A DNA stretch of 25,975 nucleotides from a virus. The notes beneath the pieces are model-generated. The model was not told the DNA's origin. It saw only the letters and a list, made by a program, of their open reading frames with translations, and did no database searches. The stretch spans positions 1-25,975 of the IMG/VR virus record IMGVR_UViG_3300005264_000120. One strand, given 5' to 3'. Position 1 is the first letter of the stretch. Each line of letters begins with the position of its first letter. Of this stretch, positions 2,551 to 23,058 are shown in pieces. Made by a program: the position numbers and the translations under genes.

Positions 2551-3428
2551 AATTTTTTCATATCATTTATTACGTCTTCTAAAATTTCCTCTTTAAACCA
2601 CTCGGTCCTTCCTATTTTTTTATCATAATCTAATATAACAACATTAAAGGCATCATATTTCTCATGTAGATAATTTTCAACTTCTCTAGATAATTTATAA
2701 TTAAAGGATTTTGTGAAAAATATATTACATTTTTTATTCAAAGACTTCTCTATATCTTTTTTTCTCTTATAAGGATTTTTACTTATACCTATTTTTATTA
2801 AATTAAGACTTTTGCATTCTATAACATAAACATGTCCTTCAACATATTCATCTTTTATTATAGAATTATAAAACTTTCTAAGTCCTTTAATACGATTTTT
2901 ATAAGATTTCTCTGATTGAAAACTATTCTCATGACCGATATTTTTTAGATTGGTTTGTTTAACTTTTTCACGAATCTCAGGTATTTGGGAAAGATTAACG
3001 ACACTATCATCATCAGTATATTTCTCTACAGCCAAATGACGTATTTTTGAATCACTCAACAAATTACTGTAACCGTGTTTTTTTAGATTCGTCTCTTCTC
3101 TTTTTTTCTTAACTTCATCATTACTAGTCATACACTTGATAGAACAATGTTCGTGTGTATGTACACCTTTATAATGTAACATTTTACCACACGTCTTACA
3201 TTTAGGTTGTTCGTAAACATCGTCCAGTATTGCTTGTAGACGTAAATTATATGATGTTTTATATCTAAAAAATGATGTTAAATGAAAAATTGTCTTAGAG
3301 TATTTTTTAGCAAAGGATGAATAATAAACTAACGGATTTCCATCCAATTCATCTACAAGTCGTTTAATATCTTCTCTTGTAAGACCAAAAACAATATCAT
3401 CATATTCAATATATTTTTCTGGTTCACT
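2547..3428 (-). CDS. GIY-YIG homing endonuclease, C-terminal part (after a frameshift)
   Basis: This 293-aa stretch continues the protein begun at 3666, but in a different frame. It has a second zinc-finger-like unit (CKTCGK...HCSIKCM) and two related nuclease-associated repeats (TNLKKHGYSN and TNLKNIGHENSFQ). At the C-terminus is a GIY-YIG nuclease domain of the T5orf172/MUG113 type: GHVYVIEC, IKIGISKNPYKR, then EVENYLHEKY. Free-standing nucleases between the halves of a fractured gene are expected to promote homing of the intein. The same frame stays open up to 3641, but codons above 3428 overlap the N-terminal part in the wrong frame and look non-coding. The stop overlaps the terminase C-half start (ATGA). 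Activity depends on whether the frameshift is real. Confidence 0.8.
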   Translation of the reverse strand, partial: SEPEKYIEYDDIVFGLTREDIKRLVDELDGNPLVYYSSFAKKYSKTIFHLTSFFRYKTSYNLRLQAILDDVYEQPKCKTCGKMLHYKGVHTHEHCSIKCMTSNDEVKKKREETNLKKHGYSNLLSDSKIRHLAVEKYTDDDSVVNLSQIPEIREKVKQTNLKNIGHENSFQSEKSYKNRIKGLRKFYNSIIKDEYVEGHVYVIECKSLNLIKIGISKNPYKRKKDIEKSLNKKCNIFFTKSFNYKLSREVENYLHEKYDAFNVVILDYDKKIGRTEWFKEEILEDVINDMKKL

Positions 3429-3666
3429 TTTGACATGAAACAGAGCAATAATCGAAAAATCCAGTTTTGAACTTATGATATCCTGTAGGTTTACCACAAT
3501 ACTTACAATAACCTTTTCCATATAAGTGAGTATATAACTTTTCTGAAAAAGTCTTACCTTCGATTTCTTGAATTTTTGAATAGAACTTAACATCATATTT
3601 TTGTATAAAGAGTGAAATATGTTTTGGATGGTCTTCAACAATCTTTAATATTTCTTCTTTTTTCAT
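3424..3666 (-). CDS. GIY-YIG homing endonuclease, N-terminal part (ends at a frameshift)
   Basis: 80 codons starting at an ATG with a strong ribosome site (AAGGAGAATAT). The product ends in a zinc-finger-like unit, CKYCGK...YCSVSCQ, which resembles the second unit encoded downstream (CKTCGK...HCSIKCM). The frame stops at TGA 3424-3426, just after CAAAAG. Dropping one A of the AAAA run would join SCQ directly to SEPEK of the downstream frame and give one protein of about 372 aa. This is either a true +1 frameshift, a mutated gene or a homopolymer sequencing error. It lies 108 bases after the intein N-part, behind its own late promoter. Confidence 0.72.
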   Translation of the reverse strand: MKKEEILKIVEDHPKHISLFIQKYDVKFYSKIQEIEGKTFSEKLYTHLYGKGYCKYCGKPTGYHKFKTGFFDYCSVSCQK

Positions 3667-3693
3667 ATATTCTCCTTGATAAATATAGTTAAC

Positions 3694-3764
3694 ATGAAGG
3701 GGAACAGCAGATTTTCCTTGAGTCTGTTTTTAAGGTTTTCAGAGAACCTTAAATTACCCCTCAT
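3694..3764 (-). promoter_or_regulatory. Three-way-junction RNA leader before the homing endonuclease
   Basis: Three helices abut with almost no linker. The outer stem is 3694-3702 with 3757-3764 (ATGAAGGGG/CCCCTCAT, one bulge). One arm is 3703-3707 with 3724-3728 (AACAG/CTGTT). The second arm is 3729-3737 with 3745-3753 (TTTAAGGTT/AACCTTAAA, 7-base loop). It lies between the late promoter (3772-3779) and the ribosome site of the nuclease gene, which it leaves free. The role is unknown; transcript stability or control of the nuclease and terminase C half is possible. The fold was made by eye. Confidence 0.5.
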
Positions 3765-3771
3765 CATATAG

Positions 3772-3779
3772 TATTTATA
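3772..3779 (-). promoter_or_regulatory. T4-type late promoter between the terminase halves
   Basis: A perfect TATAAATA on the minus strand. It overlaps the stop codon of the intein N-part gene (TTATAAATA). It would give the nuclease and the terminase C half their own late transcript, separate from the one that makes the N half. Confidence 0.72.
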
Positions 3780-3867
3780 ATTCTAAAAAAAGGTCTTTTA
3801 TCGTCATTTTTTTTATCTCTCCAGTTTCTTTATCTCTTAGTGTAAGTAAGGATGAACCATATAACGA
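3775..3867 (-). other. Split intein, N-part (30 aa)
   Basis: Thirty residues from Ser1 (SLYGSSLLTLRDKETGEI) to the stop codon. They follow the extein sequence GVLIVDE, which holds the Walker B acids. This is a block A-type start (compare C/S-x-x-G-D-T-x-I). The first residue is Ser, not the more common Cys, and the usual Asp-Thr pair is Ser-Ser. An N-part this short is the mark of atypically split inteins such as AceL-TerL (about 25 aa), in contrast with about 100 aa in canonical split inteins. Confidence 0.85.
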
Positions 3868-4149
3868 TTCATCCACAATCAAAACTCCGATACTTTCACC
3901 TCTTATTGAATCACTACTGGTACTTGCAGCAGATACCTTACATCCGTTAGATAATTCAATAGTCATCTTAGACCACTGTCTTACGTCTACTTGCAGCCAG
4001 AATGGAAGCTCCTGGTATGCATTTTTAATCCGTCTAAGAAGTTCCTTTGAGTGTCTTTCTTTATTTGCAAGTATTGCAACTTCTTTATATTTGTGAAAAA
4101 GTATGTAATGACAGACCCATACAGCAAATACTGTCGATTTTCCAGATTG
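3775..4149 (-). CDS. terL: Large terminase N-terminal half, exon 2, with intein N-part
   Basis: 124 codons that continue exon 1 after intron removal. The first codons give QSGKST, the P-loop, so with exon 1 the protein reads KFPR-QSGKSTVFAVWVC. Downstream come AILANKERHSKELLRR, SKMTIELSNGCKVSAAST and GVLIVDE (Walker B and catalytic acids), matching the T4 gp17 ATPase order. The last 30 codons are the intein N-part. The frame has an internal ATG at 3966, but homology extends well upstream of it, so that ATG is not the true start. This half supplies ATP hydrolysis for packaging once spliced to the C half. Confidence 0.9.
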   Translation of the reverse strand, partial: QSGKSTVFAVWVCHYILFHKYKEVAILANKERHSKELLRRIKNAYQELPFWLQVDVRQWSKMTIELSNGCKVSAASTSSDSIRGESIGVLIVDESLYGSSLLTLRDKETGEIKKMTIKDLFLEL

Positions 4150-4441
4150 TGTTGTGTTGCGATTTAACCGTTTCCGTTAAATCTCTTAATGTCTCCATTA
4201 AGTCCAGACTATATCATCACCTTAAAGGCGTCCGGTGTTTCGAATTCACTTGAATCCTACGTGTTAAACACTAGTCGTTGAACGTTACTCATAAACATAA
4301 GTCCTTAGAGTCTTCGCTGCTGATTGTCCTTTTCATTAACCTTTTTTTAAACTTTCAAGCTCACTTTTTCAAGTCACTTTGTAGTAAGATTAACCTTGGA
4401 GGTTCCAGCAATTAACCGGATTTAACCCACGCCAATCGTTA
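4150..4441 (-). ncRNA. Group I intron (IA-like) in the large terminase gene
   Basis: A 292-base intron with no reading frame. Core elements on the minus strand are P4 (TGCTG 4406-4410 with CAGCA 4318-4322), P7 (GACTA 4272-4276 with TAGTC 4207-4211) inside the classic TTCAACGACTA and ATGATATAGTC strings, a P9 stem 4185-4202 with a GAGA loop, and a further stem 4161-4183. The internal guide GATTGGCGTGGG (4426-4437) pairs with the last 7 bases of exon 1 (CCCGCGT, with a U-G pair at the splice site) and with the first 5 of exon 2 (CAATC). This gives a continuous 12-bp P1-P10 match. It fixes the junction as CGT|CAA, restoring KFPR-QSGKST. The predicted last intron base is A, not the usual G. Confidence 0.92.
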
Positions 4442-4732
4442 ACGCGGGAACTTCACTATATTAAATCGATTATCTGTAAATTCATCAAGACATGTATTCT
4501 GATAGTCTCTCAAGTCTATGTTTACGAACCCAAAATCTTGATGAACGATCTTGTAATAATTCCTTGCAAAGTACTCAACACTATTCCTACATTTCATAAT
4601 CTCTTTAATCATCTCTTCAGTGTAAGCAATAATAGTACCTTCACCTTTTACTTTATTATTTGCAATATACTTAAAAGGTTTACCGTTGATATCAGTTCGT
4701 ATATTCTCTATCTTAGGTGCTACACTAACCAT
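4442..4732 (-). CDS. terL: Large terminase N-terminal half, exon 1
   Basis: 97 codons from an ATG with ribosome site GAGGAGAA. The product contains VEYFARNYYKIVHQDFGFV and LRDYQNTCLDEF, then ends NIVKFPR. This is the region before the P-loop in T4 gp17-type terminases (an adenine-binding Q motif, then the Walker A approach). In unspliced RNA a TAA stop (4439-4441) follows at once, so translation past this point needs intron removal. It overlaps the end of the small terminase candidate by 8 bases. Together with exon 2 (94 extein residues) and the C half (455) it gives a terminase of about 646 aa, close to the 610 aa of T4 gp17. Confidence 0.9.
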
Positions 4733-5104
4733 TTGTATTCTCCTCTATAATGTCAAGAAGACTCTTTGAATCGCCTACATATACAGCAGTAGTCTTCTCA
4801 TCTTGTTCTTTTCCTACTTTCTTTAACTCTGGTGGCATTCTCATCTGTTCTATATCTGCCAAATCCTTATATAACCTTACAACATTTTGTATCTGCATGT
4901 TTATACTACTGGAAAGTAATGCAATCGCTTCTATTTGGCTTGCTTTCATTTCTACAAAGTCATAAAGTTCGTACAATATCAAGCATTCATTAAAAATTTC
5001 CAATATCATATCAGATATTATTGACAAACAATCGGACTTAATATAATTATTTTCTTGAGTCGTTTAGGTATTTTATTCATTGTTTCATATTTTAAGTCTA
5101 CCAT
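4725..5104 (-). CDS. Probable small terminase (gp16-like), with an apparent frameshift
   Basis: Position just before the large terminase, overlapping its start, is that of T4 gene 16. The only good start is the ATG at 5104 with ribosome site AAAGGAGAAC; that frame reads MVDLKYETMNKIPKRLKK and ends at 5018. The rest of the protein is in another frame (down to 4725): NNYIKSDCLSIISDM, a likely coiled-coil region (MKASQIEAIALLSSSINMQI...VVRLYKDLADIEQ) and an acidic tail. One extra A in the AAGAAAATAA run would fuse them into about 125 aa. I cannot find an ATG with a ribosome site for the second frame alone (5027 is TTG). Function rests on position and coiled-coil character, not on clear sequence similarity. 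The small terminase recognises DNA and stimulates the large subunit. Confidence 0.6.
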
Positions 5105-5158: not shown

Positions 5159-5944
5159 TTACAACATATCTAAATTCTTCGTATTCTTCATTTCAGCACC
5201 TAAAATCTTCTCTCTTGACATCCTTTTAAGAAGTTTTTTAAGCCAGTTCTTTCTACCTTCAGGACTTAAGGACTTATATATGATTTGTAGAGGTGGACTT
5301 AACTGAAACACATCTCGAAGATCGTATAAATCCCACATGTCTTTATTAAGTCTTTTAAGTTGCTTCAAGGCGTGTATTTGTGCGTTAAGTTCATAATTAG
5401 TCAATGCTACATTCTCTTCATTTTGCTTTACGTATGTTTGAGCATCTGAAACATTATTAAAAGTCGTTGATTTTTGTATCATTTTATTTATATATCTATT
5501 GTGAAAAGTGTCGTCTAACCAATGACTTAACTCGTGATATATTGTAGCTTTGATTCTAGATCCGTCAAACTCGGCCTTAAAGTTACTATGCTGACTAAGA
5601 GGGATGAAATCTAGTGAATTTTTTATACCATCTTCACTCTTATAAAGGTCAATTGCACTATTATTAAAGTTAACATGAATAGTAGCATCTGAAGGCTTAT
5701 AAAAACCAGTTCCAGGGAAGAAGCCACCTTTAATCTCTACGGGGTTTAATTTACTAGCTCTTTTAGAATCTTTAGAAGGTAATTCACTAGAACGAATAAC
5801 TTCAACTTTTCTTTCAGGTGGCATATAACCATTATCCTTCATTAACTTCTTGACGTACTTCTTAAATATCTTGTTATAGATGTAGTCTACGTCTTTACCT
5901 ATACTGAAGGTTTTCTCAAAGAGATGTTGCTTGAAAGTTCTCAT
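5159..5944 (-). CDS. Packaged zinc metalloprotease-like protein with capsid-targeting leader
   Basis: 261 aa. It begins MRTFKQHLFE, the leader shared by this gene bank, with a likely maturation cut after LFE (residue 10). The core has the zinc protease signature TIYHELSHWLDD: His137, Glu138 and His141. A likely third ligand is Glu185 in NYELNAQIHAL. The C-terminal third is rich in Lys and Arg. No signal peptide or membrane segment is seen. I infer a protease carried in the head and delivered into the host, or acting in head maturation; the target is unknown. It is the last gene of the bank, followed by the 54-base gap before the packaging genes. Confidence 0.75.
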   Translation of the reverse strand: MRTFKQHLFEKTFSIGKDVDYIYNKIFKKYVKKLMKDNGYMPPERKVEVIRSSELPSKDSKRASKLNPVEIKGGFFPGTGFYKPSDATIHVNFNNSAIDLYKSEDGIKNSLDFIPLSQHSNFKAEFDGSRIKATIYHELSHWLDDTFHNRYINKMIQKSTTFNNVSDAQTYVKQNEENVALTNYELNAQIHALKQLKRLNKDMWDLYDLRDVFQLSPPLQIIYKSLSPEGRKNWLKKLLKRMSREKILGAEMKNTKNLDML

Positions 5945-5954
5945 AATATTTCAG

Positions 5955-6746
5955 TTATTTTACAGATTTTATTATTGAATACATTTTTTGATAATCTTTC
6001 ACCTCTTCTATAGGATATTTTGTTTCTGTTTCATATTTAATAATCTTTACAATACTTGTATCTTCTAAATAATCACCAACTGTTACATAACGATTATATA
6101 GTGTTTCTTTAATAGCATAAACTTTAAGAACTTTAATATTATTTAAAATAATTTCATCATAATCAAATCCATCATTAGCTGCTATTGTTAGATCTCTTAA
6201 ATTTATCTTATGTCTTTTCAAAATAGATTCAATACCTTTAATATACATGTCAATAAATTTTGCAACTTTTTTCTTATCTTCCTTACCTAATATAACATCA
6301 GATCTAATCGAATCAAAAGATTTTTTAAAAACCATAAGAGAAATAGCTCTACGAAGTTTATAAAGATCGTTGCCAATTTTTGGAATTTTTTCTGAATCAA
6401 TCCATCGTCTACCTTGAGAATCAATTTCACTGAAAATGTCTGTATTTACCTTTAATAAAAAATCACCTTTCAATTTGACTACGATACCACTTCCAGCTAC
6501 AACACCCATTCTTAAATCACCTACTGACATGTCTGTAAAACAACTTAAAGATTTTTTTGTACCTTCAATCTTTTCTAATTCCTTTAAGTTTTTTGGACCC
6601 ATAACATGAAACGCTACAAATGATTGCTTACCATAAAGCCTTTCTATCATTGGAGAACTTAAAGGAATAAAGGGATGATTAAATATGTATGTTTTAACTT
6701 TAGTTGTATATATATTTTCTTGAAGATGAACTTTAAATGTTTTCAT
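5955..6746 (-). CDS. Putative internal head protein, GTKK/GRRW family, copy 1
   Basis: 263 aa, with leader MKTFKVHLQE (cut expected after LQE, residue 10). It is a paralog of the protein at 9481-10272. Both share the order PLS/TPxML/IxRL, FHV, a K-x-L-x-x-L/I-x-G-T-K-K-S/G segment (here KIEGTKKSLSCF), an L-K-G-D segment (VVKLKGDFLL), then GRRWI/L. The pattern of a His in FHV, a Ser-rich middle and a later conserved strand recalls an ADP-ribosyltransferase fold, but I cannot see a definite catalytic Glu, so no activity is claimed. The ATG overlaps the stop of the gene upstream (ATGA). Function unknown. Confidence 0.7.
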   Translation of the reverse strand: MKTFKVHLQENIYTTKVKTYIFNHPFIPLSSPMIERLYGKQSFVAFHVMGPKNLKELEKIEGTKKSLSCFTDMSVGDLRMGVVAGSGIVVKLKGDFLLKVNTDIFSEIDSQGRRWIDSEKIPKIGNDLYKLRRAISLMVFKKSFDSIRSDVILGKEDKKKVAKFIDMYIKGIESILKRHKINLRDLTIAANDGFDYDEIILNNIKVLKVYAIKETLYNRYVTVGDYLEDTSIVKIIKYETETKYPIEEVKDYQKMYSIIKSVK

Positions 6747-7186
6747 AGTTGATACTGTCCATACTTTATTAAAGGATATTTATTTTTTAAGAATATTCTA
6801 ATTTTCTCTAATCTATCCATAGGTAATCTAAGTTTTGTTAAGTGTTCAACCGCTAATACACTATTTTTAATATCTATTGAATCGCCTTTTTTTACTTTTA
6901 TCATCTCTTCATTTTCACCGTGATTTCTAGTAACATCATGTTGCAAATCCATAAAAGGTTTAATTGAATATTTATTAGATAACTTATCACCGTCTACTGT
7001 AATTCTTATACCTTTTTTTCCAAATTCTTCAAGTCTGGAATTTCTTGAAAAAGATATATAACCATGTTTATATATATCTTTTAACTTAAATTTTGATTTT
7101 AATATTTTTTCAAAAGAATTTAAATCTGTAAAATGATAAATTATACCAACTTGTTTACCTTCTATCAGTTCTTTAAATGTTTTCAT
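6743..7186 (-). CDS. ADP-ribosyltransferase-like internal head protein
   Basis: 147 aa. Leader MKTFKELIE, with an LIE cut site after residue 9. The body reads IIYHFTDLNSFEKILKS, then YISFSRNS, GIRITVDGDKLSNKYSIKPF and GENEEMIKV. This order (Y-H-x-T at the start, a strand with ISFSR, an I-x-V-D-x-D-K-L strand, then an E-x-E segment) is that of compact ADP-ribosyltransferase-like phage proteins. Their NAD-binding His and catalytic Glu lie in those first and last motifs. T4 packages such an enzyme (Alt) in its head and injects it to modify host RNA polymerase. By analogy this may be an injected modifier; the target is unknown. It overlaps both neighbours by ATGA. Confidence 0.6.
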   Translation of the reverse strand: MKTFKELIEGKQVGIIYHFTDLNSFEKILKSKFKLKDIYKHGYISFSRNSRLEEFGKKGIRITVDGDKLSNKYSIKPFMDLQHDVTRNHGENEEMIKVKKGDSIDIKNSVLAVEHLTKLRLPMDRLEKIRIFLKNKYPLIKYGQYQL

Positions 7187-7905
7187 AATTGCTTTAATAT
7201 ATGTTGTGACACTGAAGGTTCAAAAACGTCTCCAAACATACCTGAAAAAGTCACAGGATCGTCTATATCTTGAAGCTTAATGATGTTTAATATTTCTTTA
7301 GGTTCTTTATTGAAATGATCTCCTGCACGTCTTAAAAAGTCATTTAACGATGGTTTTTCTTGTGGTTCGAATAACGGTCGTCTAGACTTCTTCGAGTTCT
7401 TGATTTCGTAATAATCGATAAACTGTTCTCTAGTCATCGTAATAATATCACTTGACTGATAACTTTGAACATAGATCTTTTCAATAGCACGTGGACTTAA
7501 GGTTCCTACAAAGAGACTTTGAGGTTCTCCAGAATCTAAAAGTTCTCCAGTGATTTCAGGCTTATAAGATTTTGGATACTTATTAATAAAATATTCTCGT
7601 TCTTCTTCCTCTCTTGATGGTACTGTATAACGTAATTGTTTTCCAAGTACCTTAAATTTCATTACAACAATTCCAAATCTCTTAGCGACTGAAAAATCTA
7701 CAGTCACGAACAATCCATTTTCACCTTGCGATGATTGTTGATTGTAATGTCTTGAGACCCGTTTCGTAGCATCCACACCCTTAACGCAAAACTCGTAAAT
7801 GTCCTTTTCAGTCGATCCATGAAAGACTAAAAATTTTGAAGTCGGTTTTAAGGACTTGATGGTACTTAGTTTAGACTCTTGAAGATGTTGTTTAAAGGTT
7901 TTCAT
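7183..7905 (-). CDS. Second ADP-ribosyltransferase-like internal head protein
   Basis: 240 aa, with leader MKTFKQHLQE (cut after LQE, residue 10). Next comes FLVFHGSTEKDIYEFCVKGV, then GENGLFVTVDFSVAKRFG and an MKFKVLGKQLRY strand. This is the usual start of PARP/Alt-like folds: H-G-S/T, an I/L-x-x-G-V/I-D segment, G-L-F/Y-V-T, then an A-x-x-F-G helix. A later Glu-rich stretch (PSREEEEREYF) or EITGEL could hold the catalytic Glu; I cannot decide which. The C-terminal 80 residues (PLFEPQEKPSLNDFLRRAG onward) are unassigned. The sequence differs from the 6743-7186 protein, so this is not a recent duplicate. Overlaps both neighbours by ATGA. Confidence 0.6.
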   Translation of the reverse strand: MKTFKQHLQESKLSTIKSLKPTSKFLVFHGSTEKDIYEFCVKGVDATKRVSRHYNQQSSQGENGLFVTVDFSVAKRFGIVVMKFKVLGKQLRYTVPSREEEEREYFINKYPKSYKPEITGELLDSGEPQSLFVGTLSPRAIEKIYVQSYQSSDIITMTREQFIDYYEIKNSKKSRRPLFEPQEKPSLNDFLRRAGDHFNKEPKEILNIIKLQDIDDPVTFSGMFGDVFEPSVSQHILKQL

Positions 7906-8456
7906 CTCTCAAACGCCTCTATTATTTTATATATTAAAGATTTTTGAATATCTGTAAATTTCCAACGTATATTAATATTATCGTCAGCCCATTTTCTACA
8001 AGACCCTTCATTATACTCTTGACTCATTGACTGCCAATCACAAACCATTTCAGCAAGACTAATATCGTCCATTTTAGTCCCATCAATCAATCTTAAAGGT
8101 TTGTCTCGATCATCTGGATTTATTGTTGGTGATTTGTCACTATCCCAATATTCGGGATGGTGTTTATTATTGTTTACGTGATGTTCTGTCGCTTGAGTCA
8201 ATGAAGTCTTTAGATCATTATCGGCTTCTTTACCTATTTTATAATTCCAAGTGATTTCAACATATGGTTCAAATTCAGGATCTACAAATTTTGAACGATC
8301 ATGATTTTCTATCTGCTTACTCAAACCTATTAAACTGGGAATCGTATCTTCTATAAACTTCCCATTTCGCTCTACACGATCTATATGTTCATTTGTTCTC
8401 TTCAAGAAATACAGTTTCTTGTCTTCTGATTCTAAAAATAATTTAAAAGTTTTCAT
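7902..8456 (-). CDS. HD/DUF5662-like internal head protein
   Basis: 184 aa, leader MKTFKLFLE (cut possible after FLE, residue 9). It carries a His/Asp-rich set of motifs: ENHDRSKFVDPEFEPY, ATEHHVNNNKHHPEYW, then LAEMVCDWQSMSQEYNEG. This combination (HDRSKF, HH-x-x-N-x-HHPEYW, EMVCDW) is what I recall for the DUF5662 family, seen in phages and bacteria. It is suggestive of a metal-bound HD-type phosphohydrolase core, although no substrate is known to me. All the putative metal ligands appear intact. Packaging in the head is inferred from the leader. Overlaps both neighbours by ATGA. Confidence 0.68.
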   Translation of the reverse strand: MKTFKLFLESEDKKLYFLKRTNEHIDRVERNGKFIEDTIPSLIGLSKQIENHDRSKFVDPEFEPYVEITWNYKIGKEADNDLKTSLTQATEHHVNNNKHHPEYWDSDKSPTINPDDRDKPLRLIDGTKMDDISLAEMVCDWQSMSQEYNEGSCRKWADDNINIRWKFTDIQKSLIYKIIEAFER

Positions 8457-8719
8457 AATGATTTAAAATAATCTGTAAATGCTTTTTTAAATATTTTAGT
8501 TATATGACTGACATATTTTGGATTACTTTTTGAGCGAACTTTGACAGCCGTACGACCTTGTTGGGATAAAATTAACACTAATTCATCTTTAATGTATTTT
8601 GCAGAATCTCCAAGTACCTTCCAGACTGCATAAGCAGCACCATATCCGTCCATATCTAAATGATAAAAGACCTTAATGGACTGTTTTTGTTCATTTACGA
8701 ATTGTTTAAAAGTTATCAT
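8453..8719 (-). CDS. Shrunken DHH-phosphoesterase-like protein with capsid-targeting leader
   Basis: 88 aa, leader MITFKQFVNE. It continues with KVFYHLDMDGYGAAYAVWKV, the first motif of DHH phosphoesterases (D-x-D-G-x-G-A). After only about 12 more residues it passes to VLILSQQGRTAVKVRSKS, which resembles the C-terminal substrate-binding (DHHA1) region. The middle of the domain, with the DHH motif itself, is absent, so it is probably an internally deleted and inactive relic. The leader and frame are intact, so a short product could still be packaged. Ends in a Lys-rich stretch (HITKIFKKAFTDYF). Confidence 0.6.
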   Translation of the reverse strand: MITFKQFVNEQKQSIKVFYHLDMDGYGAAYAVWKVLGDSAKYIKDELVLILSQQGRTAVKVRSKSNPKYVSHITKIFKKAFTDYFKSL

Positions 8720-8723
8720 ACTT

Positions 8724-9137
8724 TTAATACCCTCGCCTATTCAATCCCTGATTATAACTCCCCTTAGAATATTTCATACCTTTTATTTCTGTTCCTTTAA
8801 TATCATCAATTGATGGCATTAAAATATCATAATGTTCCATATTTGGTTTCAATGAAAAAATTGCTCTATCTATTGCTTTATCAATTTCTAAATCAGCAAC
8901 AATTTCAAATTTATTTTTATAATAATCCAATAATTTTTTTGGAGGAATCAAATTATTTTTGTTTTCTTCGAAAAAGGTTGGTTCAGTAGCATAAAAATCT
9001 TTACCGTGTGAATATTTTTTGTATTTTTTATGATATTGTTTTAATGTTTTACCCCATTCCTTCCAAAGTTTAATCAATTCTTTAAGTTCTTTTTTAGAAT
9101 TTAATTCTTGTTCTAACAATCTCTTATAATTATTCAT
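8724..9137 (-). CDS. Putative internal head protein, unknown function
   Basis: 137 aa, starting MNNYKRLLEQELNSKKELKE. The first nine residues fit the leader of this bank, with LLE at 7-9. The body is basic and rich in Tyr and Lys (LKQYHKKYKKYSHGKDFYAT), with a predicted helical N-terminal half. I recognise no domain. Ribosome site AAAGGTATGAT before the ATG; the stop lies 4 bases before the next gene. Small basic packaged proteins are common in T4-like heads, where they bind DNA or act after injection. That role is inferred from leader and context only. Confidence 0.68.
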   Translation of the reverse strand: MNNYKRLLEQELNSKKELKELIKLWKEWGKTLKQYHKKYKKYSHGKDFYATEPTFFEENKNNLIPPKKLLDYYKNKFEIVADLEIDKAIDRAIFSLKPNMEHYDILMPSIDDIKGTEIKGMKYSKGSYNQGLNRRGY

Positions 9138-9138
9138 A

Positions 9139-9484
9139 TCATACCTTTATAACTTTGATTTTAGGGTTATTAAGATCATTTACTGCTTTAACATTTTTTT
9201 TATCATCGTCATAAAACACTACGTTCTTGAAACCTTCTTTACCTATCAATATATCTTGAAGTACAAAGGCTTTAAGATCTTCAGGACTTAAAGCACCTAG
9301 TGTCTTTAGGTAACTTCGATCTGATCTTAGCAAACTCAGAGGTTGATACTGAACGTTCTTCAGTCTCTCCAGGAAGAGTATAATAGATCTTAGAGGACGT
9401 AAAGAATAAAGCATCGTCAATATCAAATACATGAATCTCACCAGTATTTTGTTTTTCTTGAAGGTGTTGTTTGAAGGTTTTCAT
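9139..9484 (-). pseudogene. Decayed HAD-family phosphatase with capsid-targeting leader
   Basis: The N-terminal part (9281-9484) has leader MKTFKQHLQE and HAD motif I as HVFDIDDALFF, with Asp21 and Asp23 (the usual Thr after DxDx is Ala25). It goes on through STSEFAKIRSKLPKDT and stops. The C-terminal part is in another frame (to 9139): LGALSPEDLKAFVLQDILIG, then VVFYDDDKKNVKAV (motif IV-like Asp pair). A one-base shift near 9300-9310 would join them. Even then the product would be about 115 aa and would lack the central region with motifs II and III. I therefore call a gene broken by an internal deletion plus frameshift. The leader could still direct a 67-aa product to the head. Confidence 0.62.
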
Positions 9485-10272
9485 TTATATTTCCTTCTGA
9501 TTTTTTTAATTTCTTTCTGCATCTCTCTTATGTTCTTAACTACTTTAACTTTAAGTGACTCTTCTTCTAAATCTAATTTTTGCTGCCAGACATCTCTTCC
9601 AGATTTTTCTAACATATCCTCTATAAGAAATACTTTAACTATTTTAAAATTAGTTACTATAAACTCATTAATTGACGAACGTTCTTTCGATAAACCTTCA
9701 AGTATGTCATTTTGATATGTTTTAAAAATACCTTCACATGATTTCATAAATTCTTTAATATATTCATTCTTTTTCTTATTATTCCGAAGATTAAAATCAC
9801 AGCTATAAAAATTATCACAATTAAAATGTTTCTTCAATAACCATAACTTTAAATCATCTAACTCTTTTCTTAAAGACAGTGGAAACTCGATACCAATCTT
9901 CAACCATCTACGTCCGTGCTTATCTGCTGCGGTGTAAAGATCTCTATTTCCATACATCACTACATCACCTTTTAATAAACTAACAGCACCTCCACCTGCT
10001 TCAACTCCTGACTCTAAATAACCTTTTGATATATTAAGAAACCCTGAAACACCTTTTTTAGTTCCTTGAAGTCTTATAAGGTTTTTCAATACATTAAAAA
10101 CACTTGAAACATGAAAAACCTCTCCTTTATATGTCCATCCAAGACGATGTAACATCTTAGGAGTCAATGGAAGATACTTCTGAAAAAAAACCAAATTATT
10201 CATAGGTTCATAATCTGTTACAATATCTTCAATGTTTAATCTTTCTTCTAAATATTGCTTAAATGTTGTCAT
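9481..10272 (-). CDS. Putative internal head protein, GTKK/GRRW family, copy 2
   Basis: 263 aa from the ATG at 10272 (MTTFKQYLEE), chosen because it aligns with the other leaders; ATG 10275 is equally close to the ribosome site (AAGAGAATAAAG). An upstream in-frame start at 10329 lies inside the previous gene. Expected cut after LEE, residue 10. It shares with the 5955-6746 protein the series YLPLTPKMLHRLG, VFHVSS, RLQGTKKGVSGF, SLLKGDVVMY and KHGRRWL. The two diverge strongly outside this core and are both 263 aa. Role unknown; possibly an ADP-ribosyltransferase-like fold. The C-terminus is very Lys-rich. Overlaps the small gene upstream by about 14 bases. Confidence 0.7.
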   Translation of the reverse strand: MTTFKQYLEERLNIEDIVTDYEPMNNLVFFQKYLPLTPKMLHRLGWTYKGEVFHVSSVFNVLKNLIRLQGTKKGVSGFLNISKGYLESGVEAGGGAVSLLKGDVVMYGNRDLYTAADKHGRRWLKIGIEFPLSLRKELDDLKLWLLKKHFNCDNFYSCDFNLRNNKKKNEYIKEFMKSCEGIFKTYQNDILEGLSKERSSINEFIVTNFKIVKVFLIEDMLEKSGRDVWQQKLDLEEESLKVKVVKNIREMQKEIKKIRRKYK

Positions 10273-10393
10273 CATCTTTATTCTCTTTTTTATCTTCTTG
10301 TTTTTTCTTCTTAGACAACTTTTCACCAATCTTCATTATAACTTTCTCTTGAATGATTGTAAATATAAATCCTATCACTGGTAATGGTATCAT
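10259..10393 (-). CDS. Small hydrophobic/charged protein, unknown
   Basis: 44 aa, starting MIPLPVIGFIFTIIQEK and ending in a strongly charged tail (KKKKQEDKKENKDDDN). The ATG at 10393 follows the stop of the amidoligase gene and has an AGAGGG-type ribosome site. The same frame is open further upstream, but that part overlaps the amidoligase gene. The first 15 residues could be a short membrane anchor. It lacks the capsid-targeting leader. Function unknown. Confidence 0.55.
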   Translation of the reverse strand: MIPLPVIGFIFTIIQEKVIMKIGEKLSKKKKQEDKKENKDDDNI

Positions 10394-10394
10394 C

Positions 10395-12044
10395 TTACAC
10401 CCTCTTATATGTTTTAAGCCAGTTGTCAGTGTCGATCTTAAAGTCTTTAATTTTCTTACTAGTCTTATAAAAATTTTTCGTTTTTCCAATCTTTTCAAAC
10501 TCTTTAATCGTTCCATTATGTTCAGGAGTGTAAATCATATAAACATCATTTTTATAAGAATAATAATATCTTATACTGCCATATTTATTAGAAGCTGAAC
10601 CAAGTAACAACCCATCTCTTTCTACAACATTTATTTGCTTTTGAGTCTCTTTAATCTCTTTGTCACTTCTTAAATAATCTGCTTTCACGGCAAGTCTATA
10701 AAGTTTCTTTAAATATTCTTCCTTCTTATATTCAGGATCTAAAGCTAATTTAAGATAACTTGCAAACCTTCCAAGAGCAGTAATGACCTCTTTATATTTT
10801 TTGTGATAATTAGTACCTCCCATCCATCTTATTTCAATATGTCCTTTACCTATAGGTTCCCAATTGATTGAATTATATTTAGTAGATTGAGGCAATACGT
10901 TTGCTTGAAAATCCTTAAAAATCCATTGAATATCATCTTTACCTGATTTAAACAATGCCGATGGATAATCAGGATGTTCTTTAAACGTTTTGTCAAGTTT
11001 CTTTATCATACTTAATGTATATGAATTCCCCTCTCGTTCTGGAAAATTCTTCAAAACCCAATTTTCTTCTGTAAACATCATCATTTTAAGTAAATCAAGA
11101 TTTTGACTCATATTAACACCCTTATAGCCTAAATGTACATGAAGCCCTGTTGAACTATCAGTTTCTCCATTATCACTAATATAATCAAACATGTCTTTAA
11201 TAACTTCTTTAGCTTGAGTTATAGGTAGTGCAGGTGAAATTATCTCAACACCTCCTTCAGAAAGACTTGAGTCTTCTTCAATTCTCCAATTACTACTTGA
11301 AGAAGAACCTCCATGATACTCTGCAACCTCGTAATTATCGAATGGTAGATCATCGAAGTTGAAATTTTGTTCTACGTATTCAACCCAATCAGAACCATCA
11401 GGATAATCGTTTCCATAACTTAAATCGGGATAAACTAAATCAGAATTCCAAGCATCCTCTTCATAAAAAACATCCATATATATACCACGTAAAATTTGTT
11501 CTTCGTCAACTGAATCGTATATCCTCCAAAATTCAAGTAATTCGTCAGGTATACTAATAGTGTTGTAAGGATTTCTCTCAAAATAATCATAATACCAATT
11601 TAACTCGTTTTCAGCCCACTCTTCACGTTCATATCCTTCAATATTTTCAAGTTTATCAATTTCATCTTGAAACTCTCTTATGGCGTTTTCATTTTCTTCA
11701 ATTTCGTCAGTATCCTCTTCTTCGTCAAGGTCACTGTTAGCATCTTCAAGATCATTAATAGACTCTTGTTTATCGTCAATTAACGTTTGAATCTCTTGAC
11801 GAATCTCATCTTGATACTCATCTCGATCCTGTTCATATGATTTTTTAAGTTCTTCGACATCTCTTTCAAGATCACCATACAACTCTTGAAGATATGACGC
11901 ATCTTTTTCAAACTCACCGTTACTTAAGTTATCGTCAACGTATTCAAACTCCATACCGAAAGTAATGTTAGGATCGCTTAAAGCTGATTTAATCTCTTTC
12001 TGAGATATTTTTTCTTGTAATATATATTGTCTAAATCTTTTCAT
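10395..12044 (-). CDS. Amidoligase-like (COOH-NH2 ligase) internal head protein
   Basis: 549 aa, leader MKRFRQYILQE with LQE at 9-11. Core motifs match the amidoligase branch of the COOH-NH2 ligases with a glutamine-synthetase-like fold: TFGMEFEYV near residue 30, EEDSSLSEGGVEIISPAL, STGLHVHLGY, NLDLLKMMMFTEENW and GHIEIRWMGG. These supply the Glu and His ligands for metal and ATP expected in the family. About residues 45-150 are an acidic, Glu/Asp-rich insertion likely to form a coiled coil, in a position I do not expect in ordinary members. Such enzymes form amide bonds on peptides or proteins. With the leader, a packaged enzyme that modifies a host or virion protein is an inference. ATG lies directly at the end of gp15. 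Confidence 0.75.
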   Translation of the reverse strand: MKRFRQYILQEKISQKEIKSALSDPNITFGMEFEYVDDNLSNGEFEKDASYLQELYGDLERDVEELKKSYEQDRDEYQDEIRQEIQTLIDDKQESINDLEDANSDLDEEEDTDEIEENENAIREFQDEIDKLENIEGYEREEWAENELNWYYDYFERNPYNTISIPDELLEFWRIYDSVDEEQILRGIYMDVFYEEDAWNSDLVYPDLSYGNDYPDGSDWVEYVEQNFNFDDLPFDNYEVAEYHGGSSSSSNWRIEEDSSLSEGGVEIISPALPITQAKEVIKDMFDYISDNGETDSSTGLHVHLGYKGVNMSQNLDLLKMMMFTEENWVLKNFPEREGNSYTLSMIKKLDKTFKEHPDYPSALFKSGKDDIQWIFKDFQANVLPQSTKYNSINWEPIGKGHIEIRWMGGTNYHKKYKEVITALGRFASYLKLALDPEYKKEEYLKKLYRLAVKADYLRSDKEIKETQKQINVVERDGLLLGSASNKYGSIRYYYSYKNDVYMIYTPEHNGTIKEFEKIGKTKNFYKTSKKIKDFKIDTDNWLKTYKRV

Positions 12045-12856
12045 CAGTATTCCACAATTGTAGTCGTAATAGGTTCTTCGTCCCGTGTAGCTACAGTCGT
12101 TACAGGGGCTAAATTATCTGCATTAAGCTCGTAAGTCTTAATTTTCTTATAATCATCATCTTTCTGAACATAATAATTTGCAATGATCTCTTTAATGATA
12201 CCCGTAGTTCTCTTAATATAATAATAATTTGCATTTGTTTCAAAACTTAAAGTACTTAAAAAGACCCTTTCGTCTACTATGCCATACTCATCGTTACTAT
12301 CAGGAGTTACAGATGTTAATACGTATGTTATCGACTCTGGAGAAAATCCGTCAATTACATTTACATCAAATGACAGCGATGGTGCGAAAAAGGGGACAAT
12401 CTGTTCTATGATCTGAAACGTATCATCAATAGACTTTGTAAGTATTGAAAGATCGAGAGAGAGAGTATAAGGAACTGGAGTTAAAATACTATCAAGACTC
12501 CCCGAACTTTCATCATATTCACAGGCTTTAAGTTTTTGAAATTTTGTAAGATGTTTAGATGAAGCATAACTCATTCCTGATATATTTACACTCATTCTAG
12601 GTAAAATATAATTTAAATCTAAAGCGTACTCTCCCGTATTAAAATTATCACTTTGATTGCTACCTTGAGCTAGTGAAATAAATCTCTGGCGGTTCGAAAA
12701 ATGTACGGGCGGACGAATATATTTAAGTATATCTCCTTGCTCATCATAACGTTCCACAAAGATACGTTTAGCAAAGAAATCCATAAAAGTTGCTAAAATC
12801 TTTCTTGTAAAAAATCTATGTCCTAAATATTGTACAGGAGTCTCTGTGATTGTCAT
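12044..12856 (-). CDS. gp15: Tail completion and sheath stabiliser protein (gp15-like)
   Basis: 270 aa, against 272 in T4 gp15. The sequence follows the T4 pattern: FFTRKILATFMDFFAKRIFV, then KYIRPPVHFSNRQRFISL, NYILPRMSVNISGMSY and TPVPYTLSLDLSIL followed by DDTFQIIEQIVPFFAP. The C-terminal 60 residues are less conserved. gp15 caps the tail after the sheath is built and forms the joint to the neck. It has no capsid-targeting leader, as expected for a tail protein lying amid internal-protein genes. Its ATG overlaps the stop of the upstream small gene (ATGA). Confidence 0.88.
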   Translation of the reverse strand: MTITETPVQYLGHRFFTRKILATFMDFFAKRIFVERYDEQGDILKYIRPPVHFSNRQRFISLAQGSNQSDNFNTGEYALDLNYILPRMSVNISGMSYASSKHLTKFQKLKACEYDESSGSLDSILTPVPYTLSLDLSILTKSIDDTFQIIEQIVPFFAPSLSFDVNVIDGFSPESITYVLTSVTPDSNDEYGIVDERVFLSTLSFETNANYYYIKRTTGIIKEIIANYYVQKDDDYKKIKTYELNADNLAPVTTVATRDEEPITTTIVEY

Positions 12857-13176
12857 TTTCTGAATTTCACTTTAAGTTGTCTTGAAATGTTTGAAGCTTT
12901 TTTAGATATATCAGGATCGTCATTCTTATTCCATACCACAAGGTTCGTAAGGGCTCTAATCACTTCTTTATATCCTTTAGATTTTACAAGACCCTCATAA
13001 TGACTTAAAGGAAGATCCCAGAAGTTCTTTCCTTCAGGTACTCCAAGTATACCGGGGTTCTTGACAGGTATCTTGACTTTAGGCTCTTTCTTCCCTTTGA
13101 CTTTAGCTTGATATTTCTTAACATCACCCTTAAGTTCCATCAAGGTTGACTCTAGAAGTTGCTTAAATGTTTTCAT
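12853..13176 (-). CDS. Small basic internal head protein, unknown function
   Basis: 107 aa, leader MKTFKQLLE with LLE at 7-9 followed by Ser. The body is basic (KKYQAKVKGKKEPKVKIPVK) and then has GVPEGKNFWDLPLSHYEGLV and KEVIRALTNLVVWNKN, a compact conserved-looking block. I recognise the style from other T4-like phages but no function. The start overlaps the upstream gene by 14 bases. Likely packaged with the DNA. Confidence 0.72.
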   Translation of the reverse strand: MKTFKQLLESTLMELKGDVKKYQAKVKGKKEPKVKIPVKNPGILGVPEGKNFWDLPLSHYEGLVKSKGYKEVIRALTNLVVWNKNDDPDISKKASNISRQLKVKFRK

Positions 13177-13429
13177 GATTTATCTTATCTTTTAAGTTAG
13201 TCATATTACGTTTTCTTTCAAGTCTGAGTATTTCCATTTTAGCAACCCTTATACCCAACTTATCACCTTCCTCAGTCGCTTGTTCTAACTTCTTCTTCCA
13301 GTATCCAAGAGCATAATTTTTACCACGAATACTTGCATGTCTTCCATCACCTTTATCAGTATTCATATTATAGCCAAGAGTCTGAAGTTCCTGGTATGAT
13401 GCTTCAATCAACTTTTTAAAATTATTCAT
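13163..13429 (-). CDS. Small basic internal head protein, unknown function
   Basis: 88 aa, leader MNNFKKLIE with LIE at 7-9 followed by Ala, a near-ideal T4 gp21 site. The body has RHASIRGKNYALGYWKKKLE and a long basic helix (KLGIRVAKMEILRLERKRNM). It is the first gene of the bank in transcription order, behind the late promoter at 13455-13462. The ribosome site AGAGGATGAC is clear. DNA binding or compaction in the head is possible, by analogy with small T4 internal proteins. Confidence 0.7.
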   Translation of the reverse strand: MNNFKKLIEASYQELQTLGYNMNTDKGDGRHASIRGKNYALGYWKKKLEQATEEGDKLGIRVAKMEILRLERKRNMTNLKDKINHENI

Positions 13430-13464: not shown

Positions 13465-14079
13465 TTACCCATAAAGTCCGTCAGAATCGTCATCATCTAT
13501 AATGTCATCAGTCTCATTCTGACTTGTTATAGGAGTGATAATCTTAACTACTTCATCATCATTAATATCTTCAAGATCTAATATAGGTTGATCAGTAACT
13601 TCGTCAGAAACTTCCATATGATCATAATTGTAAAGTTTTGAATCAATTTTATATTTCCAATCGTCAAGTAACGTCACTTTAGTTATCTCGAAGATTTTTT
13701 TAATCTTCTTATAGTAAATCAAATCATCTTCTTGTGGAGTAATATCAAGATAATTAAAATAATTAACTGATCCAAAAAAAGTAGCAACATCTAATTGTGG
13801 AGTATACCCGAACTTAGAAAAAAGAGCACTTTCTTCAGGATAAAAATCATCTTCAATCTGTTCACAAATCAATTGAAGAGGTATTCCACGTTCTATAGTA
13901 TTAGCCAAGTACTCGCCGAAGATATAATCAGGTTGTGCATGAGTCAAATCAATATACTTAAGTTCGGGACCAAAGAGAATCGCTGCCTCATCTAACTGAT
14001 CACTCCACGTCTCTCTCTCACTTACTATATAATCTTCATCATTAAATTTAAAAGGTGGTGTAAATGCTTTATAAGTCAT
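13465..14079 (-). CDS. gp14: Neck protein (gp14-like)
   Basis: 204 aa, somewhat shorter than T4 gp14 (256 aa). Matching stretches are LDEAAILFGPELKYIDL, QPDYIFGEYLAN, ALFSKFGYTPQLDVATFFG and PQEDDLIYYKKIKKIFEITK. They follow the T4 order PDLIFGEDL, FFSNFGMQVQDEV, then EGDLIYFP...LFEI. The C-terminal 45 residues are Asp/Glu-rich and probably flexible. gp14 joins the head to the tail at the neck. No gp13 partner is visible in this window. Ribosome site GAGGATTT before the ATG. Confidence 0.8.
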   Translation of the reverse strand: MTYKAFTPPFKFNDEDYIVSERETWSDQLDEAAILFGPELKYIDLTHAQPDYIFGEYLANTIERGIPLQLICEQIEDDFYPEESALFSKFGYTPQLDVATFFGSVNYFNYLDITPQEDDLIYYKKIKKIFEITKVTLLDDWKYKIDSKLYNYDHMEVSDEVTDQPILDLEDINDDEVVKIITPITSQNETDDIIDDDDSDGLYG

Positions 14080-14087
14080 AAATCCTC

Positions 14088-17000
14088 TTAAAATGGCGTA
14101 TTTGTAACAATATCATCTGACTCTGCTTCAATTTCACTCGTTACTCTATCTTCATCAAAAAATCTAGATCTTAAAGTTTCTTCATCTGGAAAAGGCGATT
14201 CGTCAAGTAAATCAAGACCCCATGGATAAGAAGCTTGATTTACCGCATTCTTAAATTCACTAGGATATGCTCCAGACCCAAAAAGCATGTCTACTAAAAG
14301 TAAGTATCCCGGCACACTAGCACCCGATCCTATAAAACTAAAAAGACCTAAAGTATAATCGCTACTTGAAGGTTTGTTATCATCGCTATCATCTAAAGAA
14401 CCATCAATAAGTTTAGCAATGCCTCCATTCTGTACAGGAACCATATAACCTCGCATATCAAAATCATTTAATTCATCAAATGATTCGATAAGTGATATAA
14501 ACGATTCAATAAGTGTTATTAATGTATCTAATTCATTAATTCTTGATTCTATATAATCTATAGTATCTTCAATGGCTTCAAGTCCTGTAGGTATTTTATC
14601 CTTAAATCCAGATAAAACATATTCTAGTTCATTGAGTATCTCTCCACCTGCAGGAAACCAATCTTTAAACAATTTTCTTTTTTGCCAGAATTTAGGTTGA
14701 TCCTCTCTAACTGTAAAGTCAGTAATAGACGATTCTGTCCAAGTGATGTTATTGTCTCTTACAGTCCCTTTATAATCTTCAGGCCATGTGGGTTCTGTAC
14801 TTCCTGATGTACCATAACCATTAGATCCAACTTTAGTACAAACATATTTATATTTATCTAAAGTTCTTCTTTCTCCACTTTGCGAATCTATAACTCTAGG
14901 TTCTTGATCGATTCGAGTAACAACATCACCTATATAATATTTATGATTTGGTTTCCATTGTGTCCAAAATCTGTTCTGAAGTTCCTGTAACTCTAACGAT
15001 AGAGCTTTGAGTTTAGGATCATCGAAAAAATATATAAGTTGACGGATAATTGTCATAAAGGTTTTAATTGCTTTAATCAAATCTACTCCACCTGAAAATC
15101 CTAACCAAAGTATCATCCCACCTGCAAGTACAGTATCTTTATCAAGTAATGTTGGAGCCTTCTTATAAGTAATTTTACCATCATTATAATATGAATAATT
15201 TTTTATAGGTATTGGAGGATCATATAAAGGTTGATCATAATCATCAATATTGTCAAAAGACTCTGCATACAGTTTTAACGCAGAGTCTCCAGGAAGCAGC
15301 CAGAAACCACTCATTAATAAGTTCTTCAAGTATTTTGCTTCAACTACTTTTTGTCTACTTGCTTCACTAGTCAATGTTTGTAAGACTTCTTGTTCTGTAG
15401 TTAGATTCTTCATCTCTATAGCAGTTAACTGTGAAGGTGACGGATCTTTAAGAGCTGTAACTTCAGAGGCAGTAACTCCATAAGTTTCAGCCTTTTTAAA
15501 TCCAAAGAACTTTATTTCTCTTGTCCCTAACACCAACTTATCATACACTCTACGTTCTTCAGCAGTCAATTCACTTAAAAGTCTCTCTAATTTACCATCT
15601 CTATAATGCGGATTTAAGACCGTTTGATCAATAAAGATTTCATAAAAAAGTTTAGTATCTGGAATAATCTGAGCAAAGAAAAATCCAGAATTCTTTAAAT
15701 TGTTTATAAACGTAATTAAATCTGTTAAGAAAAAATCAAAAGCTGCAAGAACGGGATTTCCAACACCTGACAGTAATATTCTAACAATATTTAAAGCGGA
15801 TTTACCAATATTTAAAAATGATTTAATTCTAGATATATGTGATTTTACATTTGTTAAAATATCTTTAATTTCTGCTGGAAAACTTAATGAAAGATTTACA
15901 CCATCTACCCAACCAGAAGGTCTTGTTATATCCTCAGAATCAGCAGTATCTTCAGAATCTCCATAAAATGTAATACCGATTTCTTGTTTTGGATCATCAC
16001 TAGCAATTATAGTCGCTGTATAAGATGATGAATTGTTTAAATAATCATATACGGTAAATGTAGTTGAATCGTTTGTACTAAAATCTGCTGCAGTTTTACT
16101 TTTAGTCGTTACTGAAACTCCTGTAATGCTTATTGTAGGGTAAACTTCAGAAAAGTTAGATCTTTCAGGTACAGTCACTTCAATAGTTTTAGCGGTTTGA
16201 TCGATAACTCCAGTATAATCTTCTCCAAGTATTTTATTATCTTTCGCTCTTAAAACAAAACTTTCAATTAATTTAACTGTTTGTGAAGTTGAAACGTATA
16301 CAGTGACAATATAATTGACTATATCGCCATTATTATCGTAACAAACATAAGTTATCGAACTTGTAAAATCGTTTGCAGTCGTCCCTGAAGTTTGAGACAC
16401 TGAAGAAACTTGAATATCTGTTGCAGTTGTTACATAACTTGCTACAAGAGCTGTTACATTAACTCCGTAAGGTAAGTTTACAATTATTTCATTTCCTACA
16501 ATGACTCCATAAAAATCTGAAGAAAGAACTGTATTATCTCCATCAGAAAACCAAAACTCACTTATTTCACAATCGGCTGCCGAAGCAACATTAACTGTCA
16601 CGGTATATTCCTTAACAGTACCGTCAGAAGAATAACAAGAATATAACACTTCGTTAGTAAAATCATTTGAAACTAATGTGTTGGGACTCACTCTAGCACC
16701 TAATATAGTAATCTCAGGAACTAAAGAAGTTACATCGGTACCATAAGGAACTGTAACAATTATATCGGTTCCACTTATAACTCCTGTACAGTCATATGCA
16801 AAACCACTGTTATTTTCAATAGTAAAATCAAAAGCAGTAATACTATTTCTAGGTAATCCATAACCTTCAGTAATATTAAAATTTGCAGTTAATGGAAGAC
16901 CTATACATGCAGATCCCTCCTGACTTAACGCATCGTTAGGATTAATAACGTCTAACCAAGTACCTGCAACACATCCATAAAAAATGTTTGAACCATCGGA

Positions 17001-17489: not shown

Positions 17490-17640
17490 TCATCCCTTTT
17501 TTTAGTCTAATTAACTCTTTATACTTTTTTTCATAATCCTTTTTAATCATCTTTAAAGCAATTTTAATATCTTTTAAAGGTTTTTTAGCATTGTTAAAAT
17601 TCACATTAGGATTCCAACCTGAATTTTCATATTGTGTCAT
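17470..17640 (-). CDS. Small lysine-rich protein (56 aa), unknown
   Basis: 56 aa, beginning MTQYENSGWNPNVNFNNAKK and continuing as a Lys-rich helix (DIKIALKMIKKDYEKKYKEL). It overlaps the end of the 1045-aa gene by 14 bases and the start of the 1133-aa gene by 20 bases, so it fills the 137-base gap between them exactly. The ribosome site is weak, and translation is probably coupled to the gene upstream. No function can be given. Confidence 0.6.
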   Translation of the reverse strand: MTQYENSGWNPNVNFNNAKKPLKDIKIALKMIKKDYEKKYKELIRLKKGMNDNSTM

Positions 17641-22657: not shown

Positions 22658-23058
22658 TAAAATATCTTATTTATAAAATTTAAGATCTTATCTGAAAATC
22701 CAGTAGTTTTAACTTCTTTATGAGTTGATTTAATCGAATCGTCTGTTCCGTCGACTCCGCCTTGATATGAAGAACGAACGTAACCAAGCCAGACAATATT
22801 CATCGGATCAGTTCTGTTGGGAAATAAAACATAAATATAATCTCCTGGCTCTGGAAGATCACCCGATGTACTTCTATAAGGGGCACAATGATAAGCCCAA
22901 ACTCCATTATCTGTTGACATATTCTCTAAATTGTGAATACCTAGTACTCTCACTAATACTCTTTCTTGACATTTAGGGTCTTCGTTTGAAACTACATATG
23001 CTATCTTCAATCCACTTAAGTCTATATTCGAATTAAAACCGTCTTCTTTACCTAACAT
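22657..23058 (-). CDS. Spike OB-fold protein (gp5 N-terminal domain)
   Basis: 133 aa. The stretch KIAYVVSNEDPKCQERVLVR, then GVWAYHCAPYRS, DLPEPGDYIYVLFP and MNIVWLGYVRS is the OB-fold of gp5/gpV-like spike proteins. It connects the hub to the beta-helix. It is a separate gene here, followed at once by the beta-helix gene (TAATG). The C-terminal 35 residues are unstructured-looking. It begins directly on the stop of the hub gene. Confidence 0.8.
   Translation of the reverse strand: MLGKEDGFNSNIDLSGLKIAYVVSNEDPKCQERVLVRVLGIHNLENMSTDNGVWAYHCAPYRSTSGDLPEPGDYIYVLFPNRTDPMNIVWLGYVRSSYQGGVDGTDDSIKSTHKEVKTTGFSDKILNFINKIF

Follow-up and report, generated by a model that had tools for sequence, protein, structure and literature searches.

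The stretch of viral DNA analysed here, 25,975 nucleotides long (IMG/VR record IMGVR_UViG_3300005264_000120, positions 1 to 25,975; hereafter the window), carries twelve adjacent open reading frames (ORFs) on its minus strand within 5159-13429, each of which opens at its ATG with a common leader of 9-11 residues. The leader resembles the capsid-targeting sequence of bacteriophage T4, and it is very likely that the phage, an uncultured relative of T4, encodes in these twelve genes a bank of internal head proteins whose cargo bears N-terminal capsid-targeting sequences. Since the genes share a head-addressing tag, the phage probably injects an enzyme kit. The tag is known from T4, and the bank of the window is larger and more enzyme-rich than the T4 set.

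The shared leader and the T4 capsid-targeting sequence

ORFs of at least 60 residues in the window were scanned with a regular expression for the leader, which retrieved exactly 12, all on one strand and all within 5159-13429, against a chance expectation of 0.14 when residues 2-13 were shuffled. A control set of 120 arbitrarily chosen IMG/VR loci (1.0 Mb), scanned with a slightly broader expression, returned four matches, corresponding to 0.040 per 10 kb versus 4.62 per 10 kb in the window. Residue 4 is Phe or Tyr in all twelve leaders, the final residue (P1) is always Glu, and P3 is invariably hydrophobic (Leu in ten, Val in one and Phe in one), while residue 7 of the 10-residue leaders is Tyr, His or Phe. 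A sequence-only reading of the window had listed twelve genes with these leaders, ten of them ending in L/I-x-E with VNE and FLE as exceptions, and both the sequences and the tally proved correct. The same reading had described 5159-13429 as a single bank; the twelve genes are indeed there, but the span also encloses a gp15-type gene devoid of the leader at 12044-12856.

The T4 leader, MKTYQEFIAE, was taken directly from the starts of ipII and ipIII, while the window leaders are of the MKTFKQHLQE type. Mutants of the T4 IPIII leader have shown that targeting depends mainly on residues 4 and 7 and processing on residues 8 and 10 (PMC9026906). Most of the T4 residues important by mutation are kept in the window, namely the aromatic residue 4, the hydrophobic P3 and the final Glu, each in 12/12 leaders. 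When applied to the complete T4 genome, a relaxed leader pattern gave three matches only (ipII, ipIII and gene 61.1). The earlier reading of the twelve products as head-packaged, probably injected internal proteins is supported. Gene 61.1 (NC_000866 18966-19130; 467-631 of locus L348) encodes a hypothetical protein of 54 residues that begins with MKTFKEFIKE in the IPII/IPIII register, and its product is a candidate for an unrecognised internal protein.

The T4 proteins IPI, IPII, IPIII and Alt likewise have a short leader with an aromatic residue 4 and a hydrophobic-x-Glu end, and in both phages the set consists of unrelated, mostly basic bodies; in the window, 9 of the 12 products have an isoelectric point (pI) of at least 9. 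T4 Alt is an ADP-ribosyltransferase (ART). However, the four T4 genes lie at separate places, whereas the window has twelve in one run between genes 14, 15 and 16, and its amidoligase, metalloprotease-like and DUF5662 proteins are unlike the T4 cargo. Among the T-even phages, at least 10 internal-protein genes in all have been recognised by their signal sequence, and Ip1-3 inhibit GmrSD-type restriction enzymes (PMC12373910).

Two other delivery systems can be compared. In the Dar system of phage P1 an N-terminal signal also directs an effector, DarB, into the head for delivery, but there is no N-terminal consensus, DarB is a single 250-kDa protein and the signal is not of the T4 type (PMC9024508). 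The ejection proteins of SPN3US and phiKZ resemble the system proposed here in that a prohead protease cuts after Glu and the cargo is ejected; they differ in having several propeptides of more than 100 residues, an AxE/SxE consensus and different head proteins (PMC5694885).

In its workings the window system resembles a T4-type internal-protein system and probably is one, enlarged and rich in enzymes. We infer packaging, cleavage, injection and cargo function in the window phage from the analogy with T4. The leader, mainly through residues 4 and 7, would bind the prohead core, and a gp21-type protease would cut behind the Glu that ends [LVF]xE. Once released, the cargo would remain in the head with the DNA and enter the host at infection, where it would most likely counter early host defences or take over the host. 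The leader serves as a reusable tag on unrelated bodies, including amidoligase, ART-like, metalloprotease-like, DUF5662 and small basic proteins.

Cargo of the leader genes

The twelve leader genes, all on the minus strand, are the following.

13163-13429, minus strand: leader gene 1, MNNFKKLIE, 88 residues, basic, without known family
12853-13176, minus strand: leader gene 2, MKTFKQLLE, 107 residues, basic (pI 10), without known family
10395-12044, minus strand: leader gene 3, MKRFRQYILQE, Amidoligase_2 enzyme, 549 residues (PF12224, E=2e-11)
9481-10272, minus strand: leader gene 4, MTTFKQYLEE, ART-like, paralogue of the product at 5955
9281-9484, minus strand: leader gene 5, MKTFKQHLQE, HAD-type phosphatase remnant
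8724-9137, minus strand: leader gene 6, MNNYKRLLE, 137 residues, basic, without known family
8453-8719, minus strand: leader gene 7, MITFKQFVNE, DHH phosphoesterase remnant, 88 residues (phrog_4771)
7902-8456, minus strand: leader gene 8, MKTFKLFLE, DUF5662 (PF18907, E=8.9e-28)
7183-7905, minus strand: leader gene 9, MKTFKQHLQE, ART-like by motif only (FHGST...GLFVT)
6743-7186, minus strand: leader gene 10, MKTFKELIE, ART-like by motif only (YHFTD...ISFSR)
5955-6746, minus strand: leader gene 11, MKTFKVHLQE, ART-like enzyme, member of a widespread leader-tagged phage family
5159-5944, minus strand: leader gene 12, MRTFKQHLFE, zinc-metalloprotease-like (HELSH)

Two of the products were assigned by Pfam, with domains that begin downstream of the leader: the Amidoligase_2 match of gene 3 (44.6 bits versus a curated cut-off of 22) starts at residue 26 and the DUF5662 match of gene 8 (97.3 bits versus a cut-off of 27) at residue 16. 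The product of gene 12 had no Pfam match, and full-length homologues were found in Vibrio phages PVA8 and F86 and in Microcystis phage Mel-JY01. Those of the Vibrio phages begin with MITFNEHLVE and MIIFNQLNE, while the Mel-JY01 homologue has only MQLNE. His137, Glu138 and His141 (HExSH), together with the later Glu185, are invariant in four homologues, and the protein is predicted to be zinc-metalloprotease-like, with Glu185 as a possible third ligand. A PADLOC and NCBIfam search of the cargo returned nothing convincing.

The bodies had been described as mostly unrelated, which holds for the majority; the products of 5955-6746 and 9481-10272, however, are paralogues (28% identity, E=2e-24). 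Their family was found at 66 IMG/VR loci, with up to 5 copies per locus and the leader on 91 of 125 ORFs, a proportion obtained with search patterns that included the leader. Conservation of M1, F4 and E10 in alignment A3 of the family was left out as evidence since its members had been picked by the leader. In the family alignment (61 homologues) H47 and E198 are invariant and S68 occurs in at least 90%, these residues being equated with the H...S...E triad of ARTs by position, not structure. A structural model (predicted local distance difference test score, pLDDT, 85.7) gave six best structural matches that all belong to the ART superfamily, with Z scores of 4.5-5.7, all below 8, including DarT (Z 5.7, root-mean-square deviation 4.5, 124 residues aligned), Tpt1 and CteC; plain Foldseek found no match to the model at E<=0.001. 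Taken together, the model and the alignment indicate that both products are likely members of the ADP-ribosyltransferase superfamily. Some family members carry worn leaders (e.g., MKTLLEYSVYS), so the tag is not universal in the family, and a search of cultured phages with one member, from locus L064, gave no match. As for the products at 7183 and 6743, family and homologue searches gave no convincing family and no phage homologue, and the single-sequence fold of the 7183 product (pLDDT 44) was unusable.

The HAD gene has suffered an internal deletion and a frameshift, its C-terminal part (FYDDD) lying in another frame and reaching 9139, with about 110 residues missing, and the phrog_4771 match of the DHH gene covers only positions 2-46 of a 363-residue family. 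Both remnants still carry the leader, which points to turnover of the cargo; this turnover would proceed by duplication and deletion with the tag retained. The larger-than-T4 enzyme arsenal previously read from this sequence was therefore partly overstated, as HAD and DHH are remnants and the products at 6743 and 7183 have no more than an ART-like motif, while the Amidoligase_2 and DUF5662 matches above the Pfam cut-offs, the metalloprotease motif conserved in four phages and the likely ART assignment of 5955 and 9481 stand. The same remnants would fit a bank that was packaged in an ancestor and is now largely a graveyard, with several cargo genes decaying and only some products delivered. This explanation is unlikely, given that the ORFs for the amidoligase, DUF5662, the metalloprotease-like protein and the two ART-like proteins all retain their full length and conserved motifs.

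Leader-bearing proteins in virions and in other phages

The leader register was compared with virion composition in the cultured T4-like cyanophage S-CREM2, using the published virion proteome (PMC10665884, Table 3) and the N-termini of 219 annotated proteins. All four proteins in the IPIII register were among those found in virions by mass spectrometry, versus 48 of the 215 others (p=0.0029); without the named structural proteins the enrichment gave p=3.5e-4. The four are a SAM hydrolase (MKDFDSFLEE), an APH-like kinase (MKRFDAFLTE), a cytidylyltransferase (MKNFSSFLTE) and gp136 (MQTFSMFFSE), whose gene is flanked by those for the small and the large terminase. A looser expression placed 6 of 10 matches in virions (p=0.013). 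In cyanophage S-SCSM1 the virion NMNAT begins with MKSFLQFLKE. As in the window, the leader register of these two phages stands on virion enzymes (the four S-CREM2 proteins and the S-SCSM1 NMNAT), whereas the genes are single and scattered and the cargo families are others. The S-CREM2 report suggests encapsulation of virion enzymes and, in the part consulted, names no shared leader (PMC10665884). As annotated, the virion-detected Cas9-like nuclease gp12 of S-CREM2 (OR473000, 7704-10313; locus L356) shows RFASFMAEA beginning at residue 18, and may carry an internal leader-like stretch.

The S-CREM2 link between register and virion is strong but not decisive, since the virion table had been seen before the register pattern was applied to the genome and since its authors allow that abundant proteins might co-purify (PMC10665884). 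This latter point weighs against the assignment of the bank to internal head proteins, as do several others. The strictest expression gave a single match in S-CREM2, so that significance hinges on the register pattern, and SSCSM1_30 of S-SCSM1 (MKTFKQFMSE) carries no virion-protein label. In the window itself, four of the 10-residue leaders have His at residue 7, where T4 has Phe, the amidoligase and DUF5662 products are acidic, unlike T4 internal proteins, and no gp21 was found in the 26-kb fragment, which ends before the expected place of genes 18-23. A gp21-type (S77) protease was present in 11 of 12 leader-bearing contigs of at least 70 kb versus 6 of 11 control contigs of that size (p=0.06), and its co-occurrence was rejected as strong evidence because the protease is also found in these controls.

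Virion detection by itself cannot tell head from tail, and the bank sits among neck, tail and terminase genes. The leader might then dock its proteins onto some other phage structure or complex (tail, neck or an intracellular compartment), and these proteins would act late or in the infected cell and would not be injected. We regard this as improbable: the register is that of the T4 capsid-targeting sequence and retrieves ipII and ipIII in T4, 12/12 leaders have the P1 Glu and hydrophobic P3 that gp21 processing requires and plain docking would not, and of the four S-CREM2 examples detected in virions three are enzymes whose genes lie apart from the tail genes.

The distribution of the leader also speaks for internal head proteins. 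In IMG/VR the degenerate pattern MKTFK[QE]xLxE matched at least 120 contigs, nearly always at ORF starts, versus 3 for the same residues reordered, and in a 247-kb contig (G002) MKTYQEFISE lies between two MKTFKEF leader genes. None of the other loci retrieved has as many leader genes within 10 kb as the window, with 12; loci L327 and L308 follow with 9 each and several with 5-6, as counted with a slightly broad expression. One leader of the L327 bank, MKTFNQFIAE, is almost identical to the T4 tag. Other uncultured phages carry banks of 5-9 tagged genes, in which tandem ART-like enzymes are frequent, and cargo at these and other leader loci includes DUF6267, DUF5824, a 5'-nucleotidase-like protein and a cytidylyltransferase-like protein. 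DUF6267, a phage family, bears the leader at L042 1414-2028, L308 4615-5823 and L290 2379-3593 and has a ligase-like KWDGAPA motif, which makes it a candidate injected nucleotidyltransferase. A literature search, mostly outside subscription journals, returned no description of leader banks from other T4-like phages.

On balance we favour the broader view that many uncultured T4-like phages bear expandable banks of enzymes with capsid-targeting sequences, as a general modular injected-effector system predictable from the first ten residues. Its cargo (tandem ART-like proteins, DUF6267, cytidylyltransferases, amidoligases and metalloproteases) would reach far beyond the anti-restriction inhibitors of T-even phages. 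The tag may help to predict injected proteins in many marine phages and may explain the recurrence of NMNAT, SAM hydrolase and kinases in cyanophage virion proteomes; a sequence-predictive tag would make metagenomic phage genomes a catalogue of candidate host-takeover and counter-defence enzymes.

Genomic setting of the bank

The minus strand of the window follows the T4 gene order (gp53, tail protein, gp5-type hub, two very large proteins, head closure, gp15, terminases), and homologues of gp53, gp5, the head-closure protein, gp15 and gp17 in this order identify a T4-like myovirus. The genes around and within the bank are listed below.

24356-24901, minus strand: gp53 homologue
23058-24359, minus strand: tail protein
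21314-22657, minus strand: gp5-type hub
14088-20764, minus strand: two very large proteins (1133 and 1045 residues) between the gp5 and gp14 positions
13465-14079, minus strand: head closure protein at the gp14 position, without leader, upstream border of the bank (phrog_679, E=1.3e-14)
12044-12856, minus strand: gp15-type tail sheath stabilizer, without leader, core gene inside the bank (phrog_227, E=1.1e-39)
4725-5027, minus strand: probable small terminase at the gp16 position, without leader, downstream border of the bank (phrog_735, E=0.0087, weak)

Genes 14 and 15 are separated by two leader genes, and genes 15 and 16 by ten. Homologues of the gp15-type stabilizer were found in 1,997 phage records. 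In the cultured T4-like phages S-SM1, DLP6, OC and PspYZU05 gene 15 lies next to gene 16, and Cr30 has only two genes in the place of the ten in the window; the bank is therefore inserted into a conserved core.

Several genes of the bank overlap at stop/start junctions, and the leader stands at the very start of each ORF, as would be expected if it served, at the 5' end of the coding sequence, to promote strong translation or coupling of overlapping genes and had no role at the protein level; this is very improbable, since synonymous codons vary with background usage while the amino acids are kept, the overlapping gp15 neighbour has no leader, and the leader also occurs in single, unlinked genes elsewhere. 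At leader positions 2-6, pairs sharing an amino acid had 118 identical codons versus 111.5 expected from codon usage. Codon identity being close to this expectation, there is no sign of recent DNA copying among the leaders, whose likeness is kept at the peptide level, and a shared recent DNA origin was rejected.

The window has a guanine-plus-cytosine content of 31%. By alignment, the closest terminases in IMG/VR are at most 38% identical, which indicates a divergent T4-like lineage, and single-protein searches of IMG/VR found no near relatives of the terminase or the metalloprotease. The two very large proteins of 14088-20764, with no match in Pfam or PHROG, are perhaps fibres or whiskers.

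Finally, the large terminase gene (844-4732) is heavily interrupted. It contains a group I intron at 4185-4451 (97 bits) and an apparent split intein adjoining the Walker B motif (VDE|CAFIP), with halves at 3775-3966 and at the start of 844-2550 and a GIY-YIG/T5orf172 endonuclease region (2547-3666) between them. Upstream of gp53, the ORF at 24898-25896 contains repeated zinc-ribbon-like stretches (CapR/Zn ribbon) and is perhaps a mobile endonuclease-like gene.

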